Assembly: GCA_024642545.1 (NCBI GenBank) | Contig: JAHEAW010000005.1 | Location: 1 to 42,267, forward strand | Direction of reading: 5' to 3' | Source of the DNA: Erythrobacteraceae bacterium | Lineage (GTDB): Bacteria; Pseudomonadota; Alphaproteobacteria; Sphingomonadales; Sphingomonadaceae | Length of the DNA: 42,267 nucleotides | Shown: one piece after another, positions 19,053-32,491 of the stretch | Layout: every line of letters starts with the position of its first letter | Position numbering within the stretch: the stretch's first letter is position 1 | The notes under the pieces: generated by a model | Database searches by the model: none | The model's input: only the letters and a program-made list of their open reading frames with translations | Told to the model about the DNA's origin: nothing | Program-made: the position numbers and the translations under genes

Positions 19053-19237
19053 CAGCTTGGATCAGACAGAATTGCCCGCTTGGCACCGGGAAACTAGCAA
19101 ATTGAGGTATGGGAAGAGCGCCAGCTTCCCCGCACTATCATTCACGCGAGACGCCCGCCGGGAAACGTGTGCCCGGATACAAGATCATTCGAACCCGCGC
19201 CAACAAGCAGTGCCCGACAGTAAACCGAGAGGTATAT

Positions 19238-20209
19238 ATGCAGCTAAGCCGAGAAGAATTGTTGCAGGCATATCGCCGCATGAAAGTCATCCGCGAATTT
19301 GAAGAACGCTTGCATGTCGAGATCGCAACCGGCCAGATTGCTGGGTTTACTCACCTTTATTGCGGGCAGGAGGCTGTAGCGGTTGGGGTGTGCGAACATC
19401 TCGATGCCTCGGACAAGATCGTTTCAACCCATCGCGGCCATGGCCATTGCCTGGCCAAGGGCTGCGATGTCGATGGAATGATGAAGGAAATCTACGGCAG
19501 CCGCGAGGGCCTGTGCAACGGCAAGGGTGGCTCGATGCATATCGCTGATGTCGACAAGGGTATGCTGGGCGCAAACGGCATCGTCGGTGCAGGTGCGCCG
19601 ATTGCAGTTGGCGCTGCGCTCTCGCTCAAGCTGGACGGCCAGGGCAAGGTCGCAATCACCTTTTCAGGGGACGGCGCATGCAACCAGGGCACCACTTTTG
19701 AGGCAATGAACCTCGCCGTGGTCACCAAGGCCCCGTGCATTTTCGTGTTCGAAAACAACCATTATTCCGAACATACCGGCTTTGAATACGCGGTCGGTAC
19801 CAACAAGGACATTGCCAGCCGCGCGGAAGCATTTGGCATGAAAGTCTGGCGGGCGGATGGCACTGACTTCTTCGCTGTCTATGAAACCATGCGCGACGTG
19901 CTGGAATATGTTCGCGACGGCAATGGACCGGCCGCAGTAGAATTCGATACAGAGCGCTTCTTTGGCCATTTCGAGGGGGATCCGCAGAATTACCGCGGCA
20001 AGGGAGAGCTGGAACGGATCCGCGCCGAGCGCGATTGCTTGACCAATTTCCGTCAGAAAGTGGCCGATGCCAAACTGCTGGAAGGAACAGTCCTTGATGC
20101 CATCGATGAAGAGGTGCTCGACCAGATCGATGCAGCGGTTGATGCCGCCAGGGCTGCCGAGCGCCCTCAGGCCGAAGACGTCCTGACCAATGTCTATGTA
20201 ACCTATTGA
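19238..20209 (+). CDS. TPP-dependent dehydrogenase E1 component, alpha subunit (pyruvate/acetoin dehydrogenase-like), module 1
   Basis: THRGHGHCLAKG, GNGKGGSMHIAD, GDGACNQG...NN TPP motif; start MQLSREELLQAYRRM at 19238 (ORF track start 19109 too early). Confidence 0.93.
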   Translation: MQLSREELLQAYRRMKVIREFEERLHVEIATGQIAGFTHLYCGQEAVAVGVCEHLDASDKIVSTHRGHGHCLAKGCDVDGMMKEIYGSREGLCNGKGGSMHIADVDKGMLGANGIVGAGAPIAVGAALSLKLDGQGKVAITFSGDGACNQGTTFEAMNLAVVTKAPCIFVFENNHYSEHTGFEYAVGTNKDIASRAEAFGMKVWRADGTDFFAVYETMRDVLEYVRDGNGPAAVEFDTERFFGHFEGDPQNYRGKGELERIRAERDCLTNFRQKVADAKLLEGTVLDAIDEEVLDQIDAAVDAARAAERPQAEDVLTNVYVTY

Positions 20210-20225: not shown

Positions 20226-21236
20226 ATGACCAAGATGATGTACCGCGATGCTGTACGCTCCACGATTTTCGAAGAAATGCAGCGCAATGAAAATGTCGTC
20301 GTGCTGGGCGAAGACGTAGTCGGCGGTATGGGCACGGCAGGCGGACCCGAAGCCATCGGCGGGATCTGGTCAACTTCAACCGGTTTCTATGATGCGTTCG
20401 GCCCCGACCGGGTGATCGATACACCCATTTCGGAAAGCGCCATTGTAGGTGCCGCAGGCGGGCTGGCGCTGGCCGGAAAGCGTCCGGTCGCCGAGCTTAT
20501 GTTTGCCGATTTCATCGGTGTCAGCCTTGACCAGATCTGGAACCAAATTGCCAAGTTCCGCTATATGTTTGGCGGCAAAACGACCTGTCCAGCGGTGATC
20601 CGTATGGCTTATGGCGCAGGCTTCAACGCCGCTGCCCAGCACAGCCAGTCGGTCCACCATATCCTCACGTCCATGCCGGGGCTCAAAGTGGTCATGCCAA
20701 CCACGCCGGCCGATGTTCGCGGGCTGCTGCGCGAGGCCTTGCGGGGCGATGACCCGGTAATGTTCCTTGAACACAAGATGCTCTACGGGGTTGAAGGAGA
20801 AGTGCCCGATGGCGACTACACCATCCCCTTCGGCCATGCGAAGCTGACCCGCGCAGGCGAAGATGTGACGCTGGTGGCGACCGGCCTGATGGTCAGCCGC
20901 TGCGAAGCGGCCGCAGACGCGCTGGCAGAGGAAGGGATTGGCTGCGATGTACTCGATCTCAGAACCACCAGCCCGCTTGATGAAGAAGCCATTCTCGACT
21001 CGGTCGAAGTCACCGGGCGGTTGGTGGTGGTCGATGAGGCGCCGCAGCGCTGCAGCCTCGCCACCGACATTGCCGCTCTGGCAAGCGAAAAGGCGTTTGC
21101 CAGTCTGAGGGCCCCCATTCAGATGGTCACTGCGCCGCATTCGCCTATCCCCTTCGCGCTGGAACTGGAGCAGGCCTATCTGCCATCGGCGGACAAGGTA
21201 CAGGCGGCTGTCCGCAAGGTCCTGGATTGGCGGTAA
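20226..21236 (+). CDS. TPP-dependent dehydrogenase E1 component, beta subunit, module 1
   Basis: 336 aa; VLGEDVVGGMGTAGG, DTPISESAIVGAAGGLALAGKRPVAE, AAQHSQS. Confidence 0.94.
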   Translation: MTKMMYRDAVRSTIFEEMQRNENVVVLGEDVVGGMGTAGGPEAIGGIWSTSTGFYDAFGPDRVIDTPISESAIVGAAGGLALAGKRPVAELMFADFIGVSLDQIWNQIAKFRYMFGGKTTCPAVIRMAYGAGFNAAAQHSQSVHHILTSMPGLKVVMPTTPADVRGLLREALRGDDPVMFLEHKMLYGVEGEVPDGDYTIPFGHAKLTRAGEDVTLVATGLMVSRCEAAADALAEEGIGCDVLDLRTTSPLDEEAILDSVEVTGRLVVVDEAPQRCSLATDIAALASEKAFASLRAPIQMVTAPHSPIPFALELEQAYLPSADKVQAAVRKVLDWR

Positions 21237-21246
21237 GGAACGTCTG

Positions 21247-22659
21247 ATGAGCAAGCTACGCGCCTTCTGCATGCCCAAATGGGGCATCGAAATGTCCGAG
21301 GGAACCATTGCCGAATGGATGGTGCAAGAAGGCCAATCGGTCGCCAAGGGCGACCTGATCTGCCTGATCGAAACTGACAAGATCACCAATGAAGTCGAAG
21401 CTGAACGGCCCGGAGTGATCGCTCGCATTATTGAACCTGCGCGCGACGAGGCGATACCTGTTGGCGCGCTGCTGGCAGTCATCGGGGACGAGGCCGCAGC
21501 GAATGACGAAGTGGATGCATTTGTGTCCGGCTTTGCGCCTGCGCAGGGCGGTATCAGTAGCAATGCCAAAAAGGGCGGGCCAGCCAAACCTGCCGCAGCA
21601 TCGCCAAAGCCTGCGATGAAGATAGAAACCAACCGTCCGATCAGCCCCAAAGCGCTGGCTTTGGCCGAAGAGGAAGGCGTTGATCTGGCCTTGGTCGAAG
21701 GATCTGGCCGAGGCGGGCGGATAACTTTTCAGGATGTCCATCAGCATATCCGTCCGGCGGTCCAACCGGTACTCAGAGGCCCGGCAAAGCTGCCCGCAGA
21801 GGATTTGGCGATCTTCGCCTCCCCGCTGGCGCGACGCCTTGCCGCCATTCACGGGGTTGACCTGGCCACGCTGGTTGGCACCGGGCCGCGCGGGCGCATT
21901 TCGAAAAATGATGTGCTGAGCGTTGCCGAGCCTAAGAGCGGCGGGCGCCGTGATACCAACTTCAGTCCGGTCGCAAATGAACCTATCGTTGTGCCATTTG
22001 ACAAGGTCCGCAAGGTTGTGGCCCGCCGCCTGACCAGCGCCAAGCAGGATATTCCGCATTTCTATCTGCGGATTTCGGTTGCGGTCGACGAATTGCTGGC
22101 GCTGCGCAAAACCGCCAATCTGGTCCTTGGGGTCAAAGCCACGCTCAATGACTATCTGGTGATGGCAAGTGCCAAGGCGCTTGCGCAGCACCCGGATATC
22201 AACGTCCAACTGCACGGCGAGGAGCTGCACAAGTTTCCCCATGCCGATGTGGCGGTGGCCGTTGCCTCACCCAAAGGGCTGGTCACGCCGATTGTGCGGC
22301 AGGCAGACCGGATGCGGATCGAACAGATTGCTGCCGCCACCAGCCAGATGATCGACAAGGCCAAGCAGGGACGGCTGTCGTATGAAGATATGGATGGCGG
22401 GACCTTTACCGTATCCAATCTGGGTATGTTCGGGATCGAAGAGTTTGCTGCGATCATCAACCCGCCGCAGGGCGCAATCCTGGCGGTAGGCAAGGCATCG
22501 CGCGTACCGGTCGAGCTGGACGACGGTGATCTTGCCTTCGAAACACAGATCAATTTGACCTTGTCGGTTGATCACCGCGCGATTGACGGGGCTGCAGGTG
22601 CGCAGTTCCTGTCGACGATGAAAGAGTTGATCGAAGCGCCAGAGCAGTTGTTCGGCTGA
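21247..22659 (+). CDS. Dihydrolipoamide acyltransferase (E2) with lipoyl domain, two peripheral-subunit-binding-like domains and catalytic core
   Basis: 470 aa; lipoyl ETDKIT; two PSBD-like segments (21631-21750 and 21814-21927); catalytic DHRAIDG. Confidence 0.94.
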   Translation: MSKLRAFCMPKWGIEMSEGTIAEWMVQEGQSVAKGDLICLIETDKITNEVEAERPGVIARIIEPARDEAIPVGALLAVIGDEAAANDEVDAFVSGFAPAQGGISSNAKKGGPAKPAAASPKPAMKIETNRPISPKALALAEEEGVDLALVEGSGRGGRITFQDVHQHIRPAVQPVLRGPAKLPAEDLAIFASPLARRLAAIHGVDLATLVGTGPRGRISKNDVLSVAEPKSGGRRDTNFSPVANEPIVVPFDKVRKVVARRLTSAKQDIPHFYLRISVAVDELLALRKTANLVLGVKATLNDYLVMASAKALAQHPDINVQLHGEELHKFPHADVAVAVASPKGLVTPIVRQADRMRIEQIAAATSQMIDKAKQGRLSYEDMDGGTFTVSNLGMFGIEEFAAIINPPQGAILAVGKASRVPVELDDGDLAFETQINLTLSVDHRAIDGAAGAQFLSTMKELIEAPEQLFG

Positions 22660-29066: not shown

Positions 29067-29831
29067 ATGGATCTGGGACTTAAAGGCAAGAAAGTCATCA
29101 TGAATGGCGGTGCACATGGGCTCGGCCTCGCCTCGCTCAAACATTTTGCTGCCGAAGGGGCCGATGTTGCCTTCTTCAGCCGCAAGCAGGACAAGATTGA
29201 TGCTGCAAAGGCCGCCATCGACAAGGCGGGCAGCGGCAAAGTGTTGGCCGAAGTGTTCGACATGGCGGACAATCACGAAGGCTATAAGGCGTGGCTGGCC
29301 AAGGCTGCGGATGATCTCGGCGGCTGCGATATCTTCGTCCATATGGCAAGCTCATCGGGTACTGGCGGCACAGGTGACTGGCAACAGGGCCTCGATATGG
29401 ACATCATGGGTGCAGTGCTGGGGGTGGAAGTTCTCACCCCTCATCTCGAAGCGTCCGATTGCGGATCGATCGTCTTCATGTCCTCGACCGCCGCGTTGGA
29501 GACATTTGTCGCGCCGCAGGCGTTCAATGCGCTCAAGGCTGCACTGATAACCCATGCTTCACAACTTAGCCAGGCGCTGGCCGGCAAGGGCATCCGGGTG
29601 AACACAGTTTCGCCCGGCGCGATCTACTATGAAGGCGGCAACTGGGAGATGATCAAGGGCGTGGTACCGGCCCTGTATGAAGGCACTCTGGCGAAAATGC
29701 CCACCGGCCGCTTCGGCGAGCCTGACGAGGTTGGCAAGGCCGTGGTCTTTGTCGCCAGCCCAGCGTGCCCTTACATGACCGGGGCAAATATTGTCATCGA
29801 CGGCGGCTTTACCCAGCGCGTCCAGTTCTGA
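29067..29831 (+). CDS. SDR-like protein with non-canonical catalytic motif (FxxxK)
   Basis: 254 aa SDR fold; NGGAHGLG nucleotide motif; QAFNALKAA in place of YxxxK; C-terminal TGANIVIDGGF. Confidence 0.9.
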   Translation: MDLGLKGKKVIMNGGAHGLGLASLKHFAAEGADVAFFSRKQDKIDAAKAAIDKAGSGKVLAEVFDMADNHEGYKAWLAKAADDLGGCDIFVHMASSSGTGGTGDWQQGLDMDIMGAVLGVEVLTPHLEASDCGSIVFMSSTAALETFVAPQAFNALKAALITHASQLSQALAGKGIRVNTVSPGAIYYEGGNWEMIKGVVPALYEGTLAKMPTGRFGEPDEVGKAVVFVASPACPYMTGANIVIDGGFTQRVQF

Positions 29832-29842
29832 CCGCGCTGGCG

Positions 29843-30847
29843 ATGGCAGCCGACCAGCTCCGGGACGCCCCATCGCGGGCCGAGATAGACCGCGCGACTT
29901 TGCGTGACATCTATACGCGCACGATGAAGGTCAATCGCACTGACGAAAAGTTCCGCGCACTGCTGATGGAGGGCAAGGTGGCGGTTATGTACTATTGCGT
30001 GCGGGGACAGGAACTGGTGTCCGCAGCCGCGATGACCGCGTTGACCGATGATGATTATGTGGTGTGCACCTATCGCGGGCAGGGGGAACAGACTGCCAAA
30101 GGTATCCCGGCGGAAAAATGGTGGGCAGAATGCCTCGGCAAAGTAACCGGCACCTGCAAGGGCAAGGGCGGCACGATGCACATTACCTATCCTGAAAAGG
30201 GGATCATGGTCACCACCGGTGTCGTCGGATCGGGCCTGCCAATTGCCAATGGCCTGGCCATGGCATCGCAGAACAATGGTGACGGCCGGGTAACGATGGT
30301 CAGCTTTGGTGATGGAGCAGCCAATATCGGCGGCTTTCACGAAGCCATGAACATGGCGGCATTGTACCAGCTGCCCATCGTGTTCCTGTGCCAGAACAAC
30401 CGGTATGGTGAGCACACGGCTTTTGCCGATCACACCGCCAGCCCCAGTATTGCGGACCGGGCTGCGGGGTATGGGATGCGCAGCATCCATGTGGACGGCA
30501 ATGACGTGCACCAAATGTATAATGCCGCCAAACTGGCGGTTGACCGCGCCCGTGCCGGTGAAGGCCCAACCCTGATTGAGGCAATGTGTTACCGCATGAT
30601 GGGGCATTTTTTCGGAGCCGATTTCTCCTACATGCCGCCCGAACATCTGGCTGAAATGAAGGCAGAGGACCCGCTTCCGAAATTGCGCGCTGTGATGCTG
30701 GACCGCCAGTTCACTGAGGCAGAGTTGGACGATATTGTTGCACAAATCGATGCAGAAATTGACACCGCAGTGGCAAGAGCGCTGGCAGCCGATTTCCCCG
30801 ATCCGCATGAGCTCAAAGTCGATGTGTTCGAAGAGGAGATGCCGTAA
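29843..30847 (+). CDS. TPP-dependent dehydrogenase E1 component, alpha subunit, module 2
   Basis: TYRGQGEQTAKG, GKGGTMHITYPEKGI, GDGAANIGG...NN TPP motif; Met at 29843 (MAADQLRDAPS). Confidence 0.92.
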   Translation: MAADQLRDAPSRAEIDRATLRDIYTRTMKVNRTDEKFRALLMEGKVAVMYYCVRGQELVSAAAMTALTDDDYVVCTYRGQGEQTAKGIPAEKWWAECLGKVTGTCKGKGGTMHITYPEKGIMVTTGVVGSGLPIANGLAMASQNNGDGRVTMVSFGDGAANIGGFHEAMNMAALYQLPIVFLCQNNRYGEHTAFADHTASPSIADRAAGYGMRSIHVDGNDVHQMYNAAKLAVDRARAGEGPTLIEAMCYRMMGHFFGADFSYMPPEHLAEMKAEDPLPKLRAVMLDRQFTEAELDDIVAQIDAEIDTAVARALAADFPDPHELKVDVFEEEMP

Positions 30848-31845
30848 TGACCGGCAAGCCTCCGCAAATCACCATGGTTCAGGCACTCAATCAGGCGATT
30901 GATGAAGCCATGGCAGAAGATGACGGCGTGTTCTGTTTGGGCGAAGATGTCGCGGCCAAGCAGGGCGGCGGTGTGTTCAAGGTCACCTCGGGCCTGACCG
31001 AAAAATATGGCACGCACCGGATTCGCGCCACGCCAATTTCGGAGACTGCGATTGTCGGCGCTGCTGTGGGTGCCGCACTGGCTGGGCAGCGGCCCATTGC
31101 CGAAATCATGCTGATGAATTTCGTTGGCGTATGCATGGACCAGATCGTCAATCACGCAGCCAAATTGCGTTTTATGTCGGGCGGACAGACCAATGTGCCG
31201 CTAGTCATTCGCACCACCACCGGGGTCGGGGTCGGGTTTGGCGGGCAGCATTCCGATATGCTGGAAGCGTGGTTCGCGCATGTCGCGGGGATTCGCGTCG
31301 TCACGCCGTCAAACGCCGCCGATGCCAAAGGACTGATGCGGTCGGCCATCGACAGCAATGATCCGGTGATCTTCATCGAGAATATCCTGTGCTACGGGCT
31401 CAAATCAGACGATCCGGGCCCCGGTTACCGAGTCCCGCTGGGCGAGGCGGCAATCGCGCGCGAAGGCAGCGATGTTTCGCTCATTACGTATGGCCGCACA
31501 GTGCTGGACGCGCTCGCCATCGCCGATGAAATGGCCAGCGTGGGGATTTCGGTCGAAGTGGTCGATCTGCGCACCATCGCCCCGTATGACGAAGAAACCG
31601 TACTGGCGTCGGTGCGCAAGACCGGCCGCGCAATCACTTTGCATGAAGCTGTGCGTCCTTATGGCACCGGCGCAGAAATGGCCGCGACCATTCATGAGAA
31701 GCTGTGGGGCAAGCTCAAGGCGCCCGTGTTGCGTATTGGCGGGACATTTTCGCCCGTGCCCTTCGTTGCCGCGCTGGAACAGGCATGGATCCCGACCAAG
31801 CCGGAGATTGTCGCGGCCATCCGCAGTTCAATGGAAAATGGTTGA
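30847..31845 (+). CDS. TPP-dependent dehydrogenase E1 component, beta subunit, module 2
   Basis: 332 aa; GEDVAAKQGGGVFKVT, ATPISETAIVGAAVGAALAGQRPIAE, GGQHSDMLEAWFAHV; overlaps E1-alpha stop. Confidence 0.93.
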   Translation: MTGKPPQITMVQALNQAIDEAMAEDDGVFCLGEDVAAKQGGGVFKVTSGLTEKYGTHRIRATPISETAIVGAAVGAALAGQRPIAEIMLMNFVGVCMDQIVNHAAKLRFMSGGQTNVPLVIRTTTGVGVGFGGQHSDMLEAWFAHVAGIRVVTPSNAADAKGLMRSAIDSNDPVIFIENILCYGLKSDDPGPGYRVPLGEAAIAREGSDVSLITYGRTVLDALAIADEMASVGISVEVVDLRTIAPYDEETVLASVRKTGRAITLHEAVRPYGTGAEMAATIHEKLWGKLKAPVLRIGGTFSPVPFVAALEQAWIPTKPEIVAAIRSSMENG

Positions 31846-31848
31846 ATA

Positions 31849-32079
31849 ATGGCGGCGGAAATCAGGGTGCCGAAGCTGGGCATGAGCGCGCTCGAAGTAG
31901 TTTTGTCCGAATGGATGCATGCCGATGGGGAGCGAGTAGCAAAGGGCGACGTGATATATCTGGTCGAAACCGACAAGACGACGACGGAGATCGAAGCGCA
32001 GGCTTCAGGGGTGATCCGGCAAATGGGCATAGAAGGCGCGACTTACAGGGTGGGTGACCTGATCGGGACCATCGAATGA
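31849..32079 (+). CDS. Stand-alone lipoyl (biotin/lipoyl-attachment) domain protein
   Basis: 76 aa, entire ORF is one lipoyl domain with ETDKTT; 3 nt after E1-beta stop; no PSBD or catalytic core. Confidence 0.9.
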   Translation: MAAEIRVPKLGMSALEVVLSEWMHADGERVAKGDVIYLVETDKTTTEIEAQASGVIRQMGIEGATYRVGDLIGTIE

Positions 32080-32089
32080 GGCACAGGAT

Positions 32090-32491
32090 ATGAGCGAAGT
32101 GGCAAGGCCGGCCCAATTGCTGGCCGAAATTTATGGATTCGCTGGCGCGCAGGACTGGCAGGCAGTGGCGGCGCGGGTACACCCCGAATTCACTGTCTAT
32201 GAGGCAGAGTGTCTCCCCTTCGGCGGAGAATGGACCGGTCCTGATGCACTGCAACGCGTCGCCACAGCCATGTATGGCACGTGGGCGAAAGCAGTGGTCG
32301 ATATTCATGAGATTGTCGGCGGGGAAACATGGGCCGTGGTCGTGCTCAGCCTGACTATGACATCAAAAAAGACTGGCCGCACTTTCACCCAGACGGTCAA
32401 CGAAGCAGGACGCTTCGAAGGTGGATTGCTCAAGGATCTGCGAATCCATTATTTCGATGCCGCCGAGGTTGCTGCCGAAGCAGGCGAATGA
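32090..32491 (+). CDS. NTF2-like / SnoaL-like domain protein
   Basis: 133 aa; ...VHPEFTVYEAECLPFGGEWTGPDALQRV pattern of SnoaL-like proteins. Confidence 0.75.
   Translation: MSEVARPAQLLAEIYGFAGAQDWQAVAARVHPEFTVYEAECLPFGGEWTGPDALQRVATAMYGTWAKAVVDIHEIVGGETWAVVVLSLTMTSKKTGRTFTQTVNEAGRFEGGLLKDLRIHYFDAAEVAAEAGE

Follow-up and report, generated by a model that had tools for sequence, protein, structure and literature searches.

Two unlike peripheral-subunit-binding domains in the E2 acyltransferase of an acetoin/pyruvate-dehydrogenase-like operon

We found that the E2 acyltransferase encoded in the window, the whole 42,267-nucleotide stretch of Erythrobacteraceae DNA analysed here, truly carries two peripheral-subunit-binding domains (PSBD1 and PSBD2; Table 1), the usual number being one. 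Judged by their sequences, the two are not copies sharing one function. We tentatively propose, giving the idea slightly less than an even chance, that the E2 of this E1-alpha/E1-beta/E2 operon splits docking, with PSBD1 receiving its own E1 and PSBD2 a shared E3; we infer both the partners and their simultaneous binding. In such a scheme, the E2 of an acetoin/pyruvate-dehydrogenase (PDH)-like operon would divide docking between two unlike PSBDs on one chain: PSBD1, acidic or neutral as is typical of the subfamily, would dock the operon's own E1, and PSBD2, a basic domain of PDH E2 type, would dock the E3 encoded elsewhere in the genome. With two specialised sites, each E2 chain could carry E1 and E3 at once.

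Table 1. Genes and domains of the two E1 sets and the tandem-PSBD E2 (window coordinates)
Feature	Position	Strand	Support
E1-alpha (E1a1), PF00676; true start probably 19238, where relatives begin	19109..20209	+	
E1-beta (E1b1), PF02779/PF02780; Arg295, codon 21108-21110	20226..21236	+	
E2 acyltransferase, 470 aa: lipoyl / PSBD1 / PSBD2 / catalytic domain	21247..22659	+	Pfam, AlphaFold2
Lipoyl domain, aa 1-80; lipoyl Lys45 in ETDK	21247..21486	+	PF00364 aa 7-79
PSBD1, aa 131-166, acidic; Leu137 replaces usual Arg/Lys	21637..21744	+	PF02817, AlphaFold2, Foldseek
PSBD2, aa 189-225, basic, PDH-type	21811..21921	+	PF02817, AlphaFold2, Foldseek
2-oxoacid dehydrogenase acyltransferase catalytic domain, aa 246-469	21982..22653	+	PF00198
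Second E1-alpha (E1a2)	29765..30847	+	
Second E1-beta (E1b2); Lys at position matching Arg295 of E1b1	30847..31845	+	
Stand-alone lipoyl protein, 76 aa, adjoins 3' end of second E1 pair	31849..32079	+	PF00364, 58.1 bits

Two domains in one acyltransferase and their spread

The protein has the hallmarks of a 2-oxoacid dehydrogenase E2, namely a lipoyl lysine (K45, invariant in 48 aligned sequences; PF00364, 57.5 bits), a catalytic domain with the DHRxxDG motif (PF00198, 254 bits; D442, H443, R444, D447 and G448 invariant in the alignment), at least one PSBD and an adjoining cognate E1. Its score of 385.2 bits against the NCBIfam equivalog for pyruvate dehydrogenase E2, TIGR01349, lies below the required 445. 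The two PSBD-like segments recognised in the initial annotation, whose coordinates proved accurate to within a few residues, both match Pfam E3_binding (PF02817) above its curated cut-off of 23.7 bits: PSBD1 with 44.7 bits (E 5.6e-11, aa 131-164, DNA 21637-21738) and PSBD2 with 62.3 bits (E 1.8e-16, aa 189-224, DNA 21811-21918).

AlphaFold2, run with 48 aligned sequences (mean pLDDT 87), folds both segments with the same helix pattern, at residues 134-143 and 161-168 in PSBD1 (pLDDT of the block about 84-96) and at 193-202 and 220-226 in PSBD2 (85-92), and leaves residues 101-118 unfolded; the tandem segment modelled alone reached a pLDDT of 85. In a Foldseek search of this segment against the PDB, the best 29 matches were all PSBD entries or PSBD-containing, nearly all with probabilities near 1, and the E-values were weak (best 9e-3) because PSBDs are tiny. 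In a phmmer search, PSBD1 hit 1w4i (query 133-180), and the matches of PSBD2 were E. coli PSBD entries. The first segment, which AlphaFold2 and Foldseek both assign the PSBD fold, is thus no unfolded linker, as the initial annotation had allowed it might be, and HMM score, predicted fold, Foldseek and conservation together rule out both a linker and a chance match.

Each domain holds invariant or nearly invariant residues, and mean pairwise identity is 0.61 for PSBD1, 0.66 for PSBD2 and 0.61 for the catalytic core, against 0.24-0.34 for the linkers. With dN/dS values of 0.15 for PSBD1 and 0.18 for PSBD2, PSBD1 is, by these measures, evolving under the same constraint as PSBD2, and its conservation and dN/dS rule out a recent decay.

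The architecture is not confined to this genome, as the related loci and the sampled genomes both show. Among 65 related loci (L006-L070), mostly from Sphingomonadales and about 45-68% identical, 64 have the complete pair 57-63 residues apart; in 57 of 66 sequences, the starts of the two domains are separated by 58 or 59 residues. The exception, L031, has PSBD1 cut down to a 20-residue remnant, and L070 has an altered E2 C-terminus; each may reflect an assembly error or a real change. We estimated the frequency of tandems from a sample of 57 alphaproteobacterial genomes, one per family, and a phylum sample of 60 genomes. Of about 120 PSBD genes in the former, six (about 5%) encode more than one PSBD; they include E2s of the same subfamily with three PSBDs in tandem (L098, 2575-4164) and with two (L102), as well as two-PSBD E2s of PDH type (L099-L101). 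The single tandem of the phylum sample was again alphaproteobacterial, and a second sample added further tandem E2s (L114-L118). Tandem PSBDs are therefore an uncommon yet recurrent variant; that typical E2s have one, as initially noted, is right nonetheless. The published descriptions of E2s that we consulted give one PSBD per E2, and our literature search found no paper on tandem PSBDs, an absence that is no proof that none exists.

A tree of the catalytic domain supports a sphingomonad-centred tandem clade (95/85), to which the single-PSBD Eilatimonas is sister (98/87). The number of PSBDs changes about 8-9 times on this tree, at least four times on well supported branches, and gain and loss are therefore not separable. 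The PDH-type tandems of other Alphaproteobacteria (L099, L100, L101, L114, L117, L118) are a separate, or else an older, instance of this architecture.

Candidate partners of PSBD1 and PSBD2

PSBDs have a basic helix 1, which is linked with E3 and E1 docking (PMC6270654, PMC9974300). Across 40 E2s of the window's clade, mean net charge is -2.95 for PSBD1 and +3.95 for PSBD2. At the position that we take to be the equivalent of B. stearothermophilus Arg135 and human E2 Lys276, PSBD1 has Leu in 39 of these 40 sequences, whereas Arg or Lys stands there in 35 of the 40 PSBD2s and in 30/30 single PSBDs of other E2s. PSBD1 is still a PSBD by fold and profile, because the basic helix-1 residue marks the usual docking surface and not the Pfam family. 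In a second clade PSBD1 is near neutral (-0.23), and most members keep Arg at the 135 position. PSBD1 and PSBD2 each score about 45 bits better on their own model than on the other's. The closest single-PSBD kin, the PS1 clade and Eilatimonas, have an E1 of the same subfamily next door, and their only PSBD is closer to the PSBD1 model, by 28-34 bits; of the PDH-type PSBDs tested, nearly all prefer the PSBD2 model. Mixed or weakly PSBD1-like scores were obtained for L081, L098, L102, L104, L107 and L115. The opposition of an acidic PSBD1 and a basic PSBD2 across close relatives thus probably reflects different partner enzymes.

Two alternatives have to be weighed at this point. Both PSBDs could accept E1 as readily as E3 and only add docking sites per chain, as the similar, mostly basic or neutral copies of the PDH-type tandems and the triple PSBDs of L098 might suggest; we consider this improbable for the subfamily, in which the two domains are separate clade-wide sequence types, of opposite net charge in the window's clade. 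Alternatively, PSBD1 may have lost docking and serve as a folded spacer, or bind something else, for example the oppositely charged PSBD2 of a neighbouring chain. Its missing basic helix-1 residue would agree with such a loss, but PSBD1 is as conserved as the catalytic core, with the low dN/dS given above, and its type is the sole PSBD type of the nearest single-PSBD kin, which leaves this explanation little probability.

A second line of evidence for split docking comes from the partner enzyme. E1a1 and E1b1 lie directly upstream of the E2, and the same E1 pair is found in nearly all 65 related loci. At E1-beta position 295, 73 of the 75 proteins of the subfamily have Lys or Arg, against Asp or Glu in all 35 E1-betas from outside it, mostly PDH-type, the largest charge difference among 326 columns; position 305 is His in 75/75 versus Asp in 35/35. 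Elsewhere in the same genome, the residue equivalent to 295 is Asp in the PDH E1-beta and Glu in the BCKDH-like E1-beta. Position 295 aligns with Asp289 of human E1-beta, which Korotchkina and Patel reportedly found in 2008 to pair with Lys276 of the E2 PSBD, and presumably is a PSBD docking contact by way of this human residue.

A docking pair of reversed polarity, in which the acidic PSBD1 meets an E1-beta contact turned basic and E1 docking is thereby separated from E3 docking on PSBD2, is conceivable, though we regard it as rather unlikely. The idea that the residues at PSBD position 135 and E1-beta position 295 were swapped one for one holds only partly: L072, L077, L081, L115 and the bulk of the second clade depart from it. 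L077 and L081 have Lys at 295 yet a single basic PSBD, and L115 has Asp alongside an acidic PSBD1. The second-clade E1-betas of L052 and L057 have Asp, and their PSBD1s lie at the basic end of the clade. With only three independent contrasts on the tree, the association between E1-beta and PSBD1 cannot reach significance. The opposite assignment, E3 on PSBD1 and E1 on PSBD2, would set the basic PSBD2 against Lys or Arg at E1-beta 295, and we hold it to be very improbable.

No E3 gene lies in the E1a1/E1b1/E2 operon; this genome encodes E3 next to its PDH E2 and next to its 2-oxoglutarate E2. Together with the charge split, the PSBD1-type domains of single-PSBD kin and the change at E1-beta 295, this makes split docking the best reading of the sequences. 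The recruitment of E3 plus E1 proposed in the initial annotation thus stands as the preferred reading, now backed by the PSBD charge difference and by E1-beta 295, with each partner assigned tentatively. Also in its favour, E1 and E3 binding to the PSBD are mutually exclusive in bacteria (PMC2880790), and one PSBD sits on the two-fold axis of E1 (PMC2663715). Against it stand the exceptions and the small number of contrasts given above, and the single-PSBD kin, whose lone PSBD1-type domain has to serve E3 as well.

The second E1 set and its neighbourhood

The window holds a second E1 pair, E1a2b2, and the PSBD pair might let one E2 core serve both this pair and E1a1b1, as had also been suggested from the window alone. 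This version gains from the basic residue at position 295 in both E1-betas, where the genome's PDH and BCKDH-like E1-betas have Asp or Glu, and from the lack of a PSBD or acyltransferase gene beside E1a2b2. However, E1a2b2 has a lipoyl protein of its own, the second E1 type is absent from all 65 related loci within the 6 kb covered on each side, and a second-type E1-alpha (at least 45% identity) was found in 14 of 45 genomes with a tandem E2 and is missing from the other 31. The second E1 can therefore not explain the PSBD pair in general, and we find the two-E1 version distinctly improbable; in this particular genome, the second E1 might use the tandem-PSBD E2 core.

A short lipoyl frame follows the second-type E1 pair in 12 of 18 related loci examined, and the triad of E1-alpha, E1-beta and lipoyl protein recurs in sphingomonad genomes without an adjoining PSBD or acyltransferase. 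In another E1 of this genome (G000 C170; L105, 1204-3390), E1-alpha and E1-beta are fused in an open frame of about 730 aa, with no E2 seen beside it.

Rieske oxygenases, SDRs, an aldehyde dehydrogenase and a thiolase are encoded near the E1/E2 genes and suggest a catabolic cluster. Around both E1 sets, between 22768 and 36375, lie a TonB-type receptor-like ORF, an MFS transporter gene, several SDR genes and those of two Rieske oxygenases; many related loci likewise have SDR and Rieske genes next to E1/E2 genes. A SnoaL-like protein of 133 aa (32090-32491, + strand) is encoded between the lipoyl gene and an NmrA-like gene.

Comparison with known systems

It is a classic problem how, in bacteria, a common docking site on the E2 core can serve both E1 and E3. 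If our reading is correct, two unlike docking domains would make the occupancy of E1 and E3 independently variable in one chain, and the paired charge change would provide a docking pair that is orthogonal to the standard one.

With acetoin-dehydrogenase-type operons, the operon described here shares the MPKWG-type lipoyl motif and separate, adjoining genes for E1-alpha and E1-beta; the NCBIfam equivalog for acetoin dehydrogenase E2, PRK14875, matches only aa 5-223 of our E2 and, with 104.7 bits of the 307 required, stays far under its cut-off. Bacterial single-PSBD E2s of PDH type, such as that of G. stearothermophilus (PDB 1w85, 1ebd), have the same order of lipoyl, PSBD and acyltransferase domains and the same PSBD fold, and their usual basic helix 1 is also present in PSBD2. 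Our E2 differs from them in having two PSBDs, of which PSBD1 is acidic and without the usual Arg or Lys. The alphaproteobacterial tandem PDH E2s listed above likewise have a PSBD pair separating the lipoyl from the catalytic domain, but both copies belong to the PDH type and most are basic or neutral, unlike those of this E2, and the partner E1-beta at L099-L101, L117 and L118 keeps Asp, unlike E1b1. The mammalian and fungal pyruvate dehydrogenase complexes, composed of E2 and E3BP, would likewise resemble the Erythrobacteraceae system in having separate docking sites for E1 and E3, if split docking is the right reading. There the sites are on two proteins, whereas here both are on one catalytically complete E2, which would then be the single-protein counterpart of the mammalian division between E2 and E3BP.
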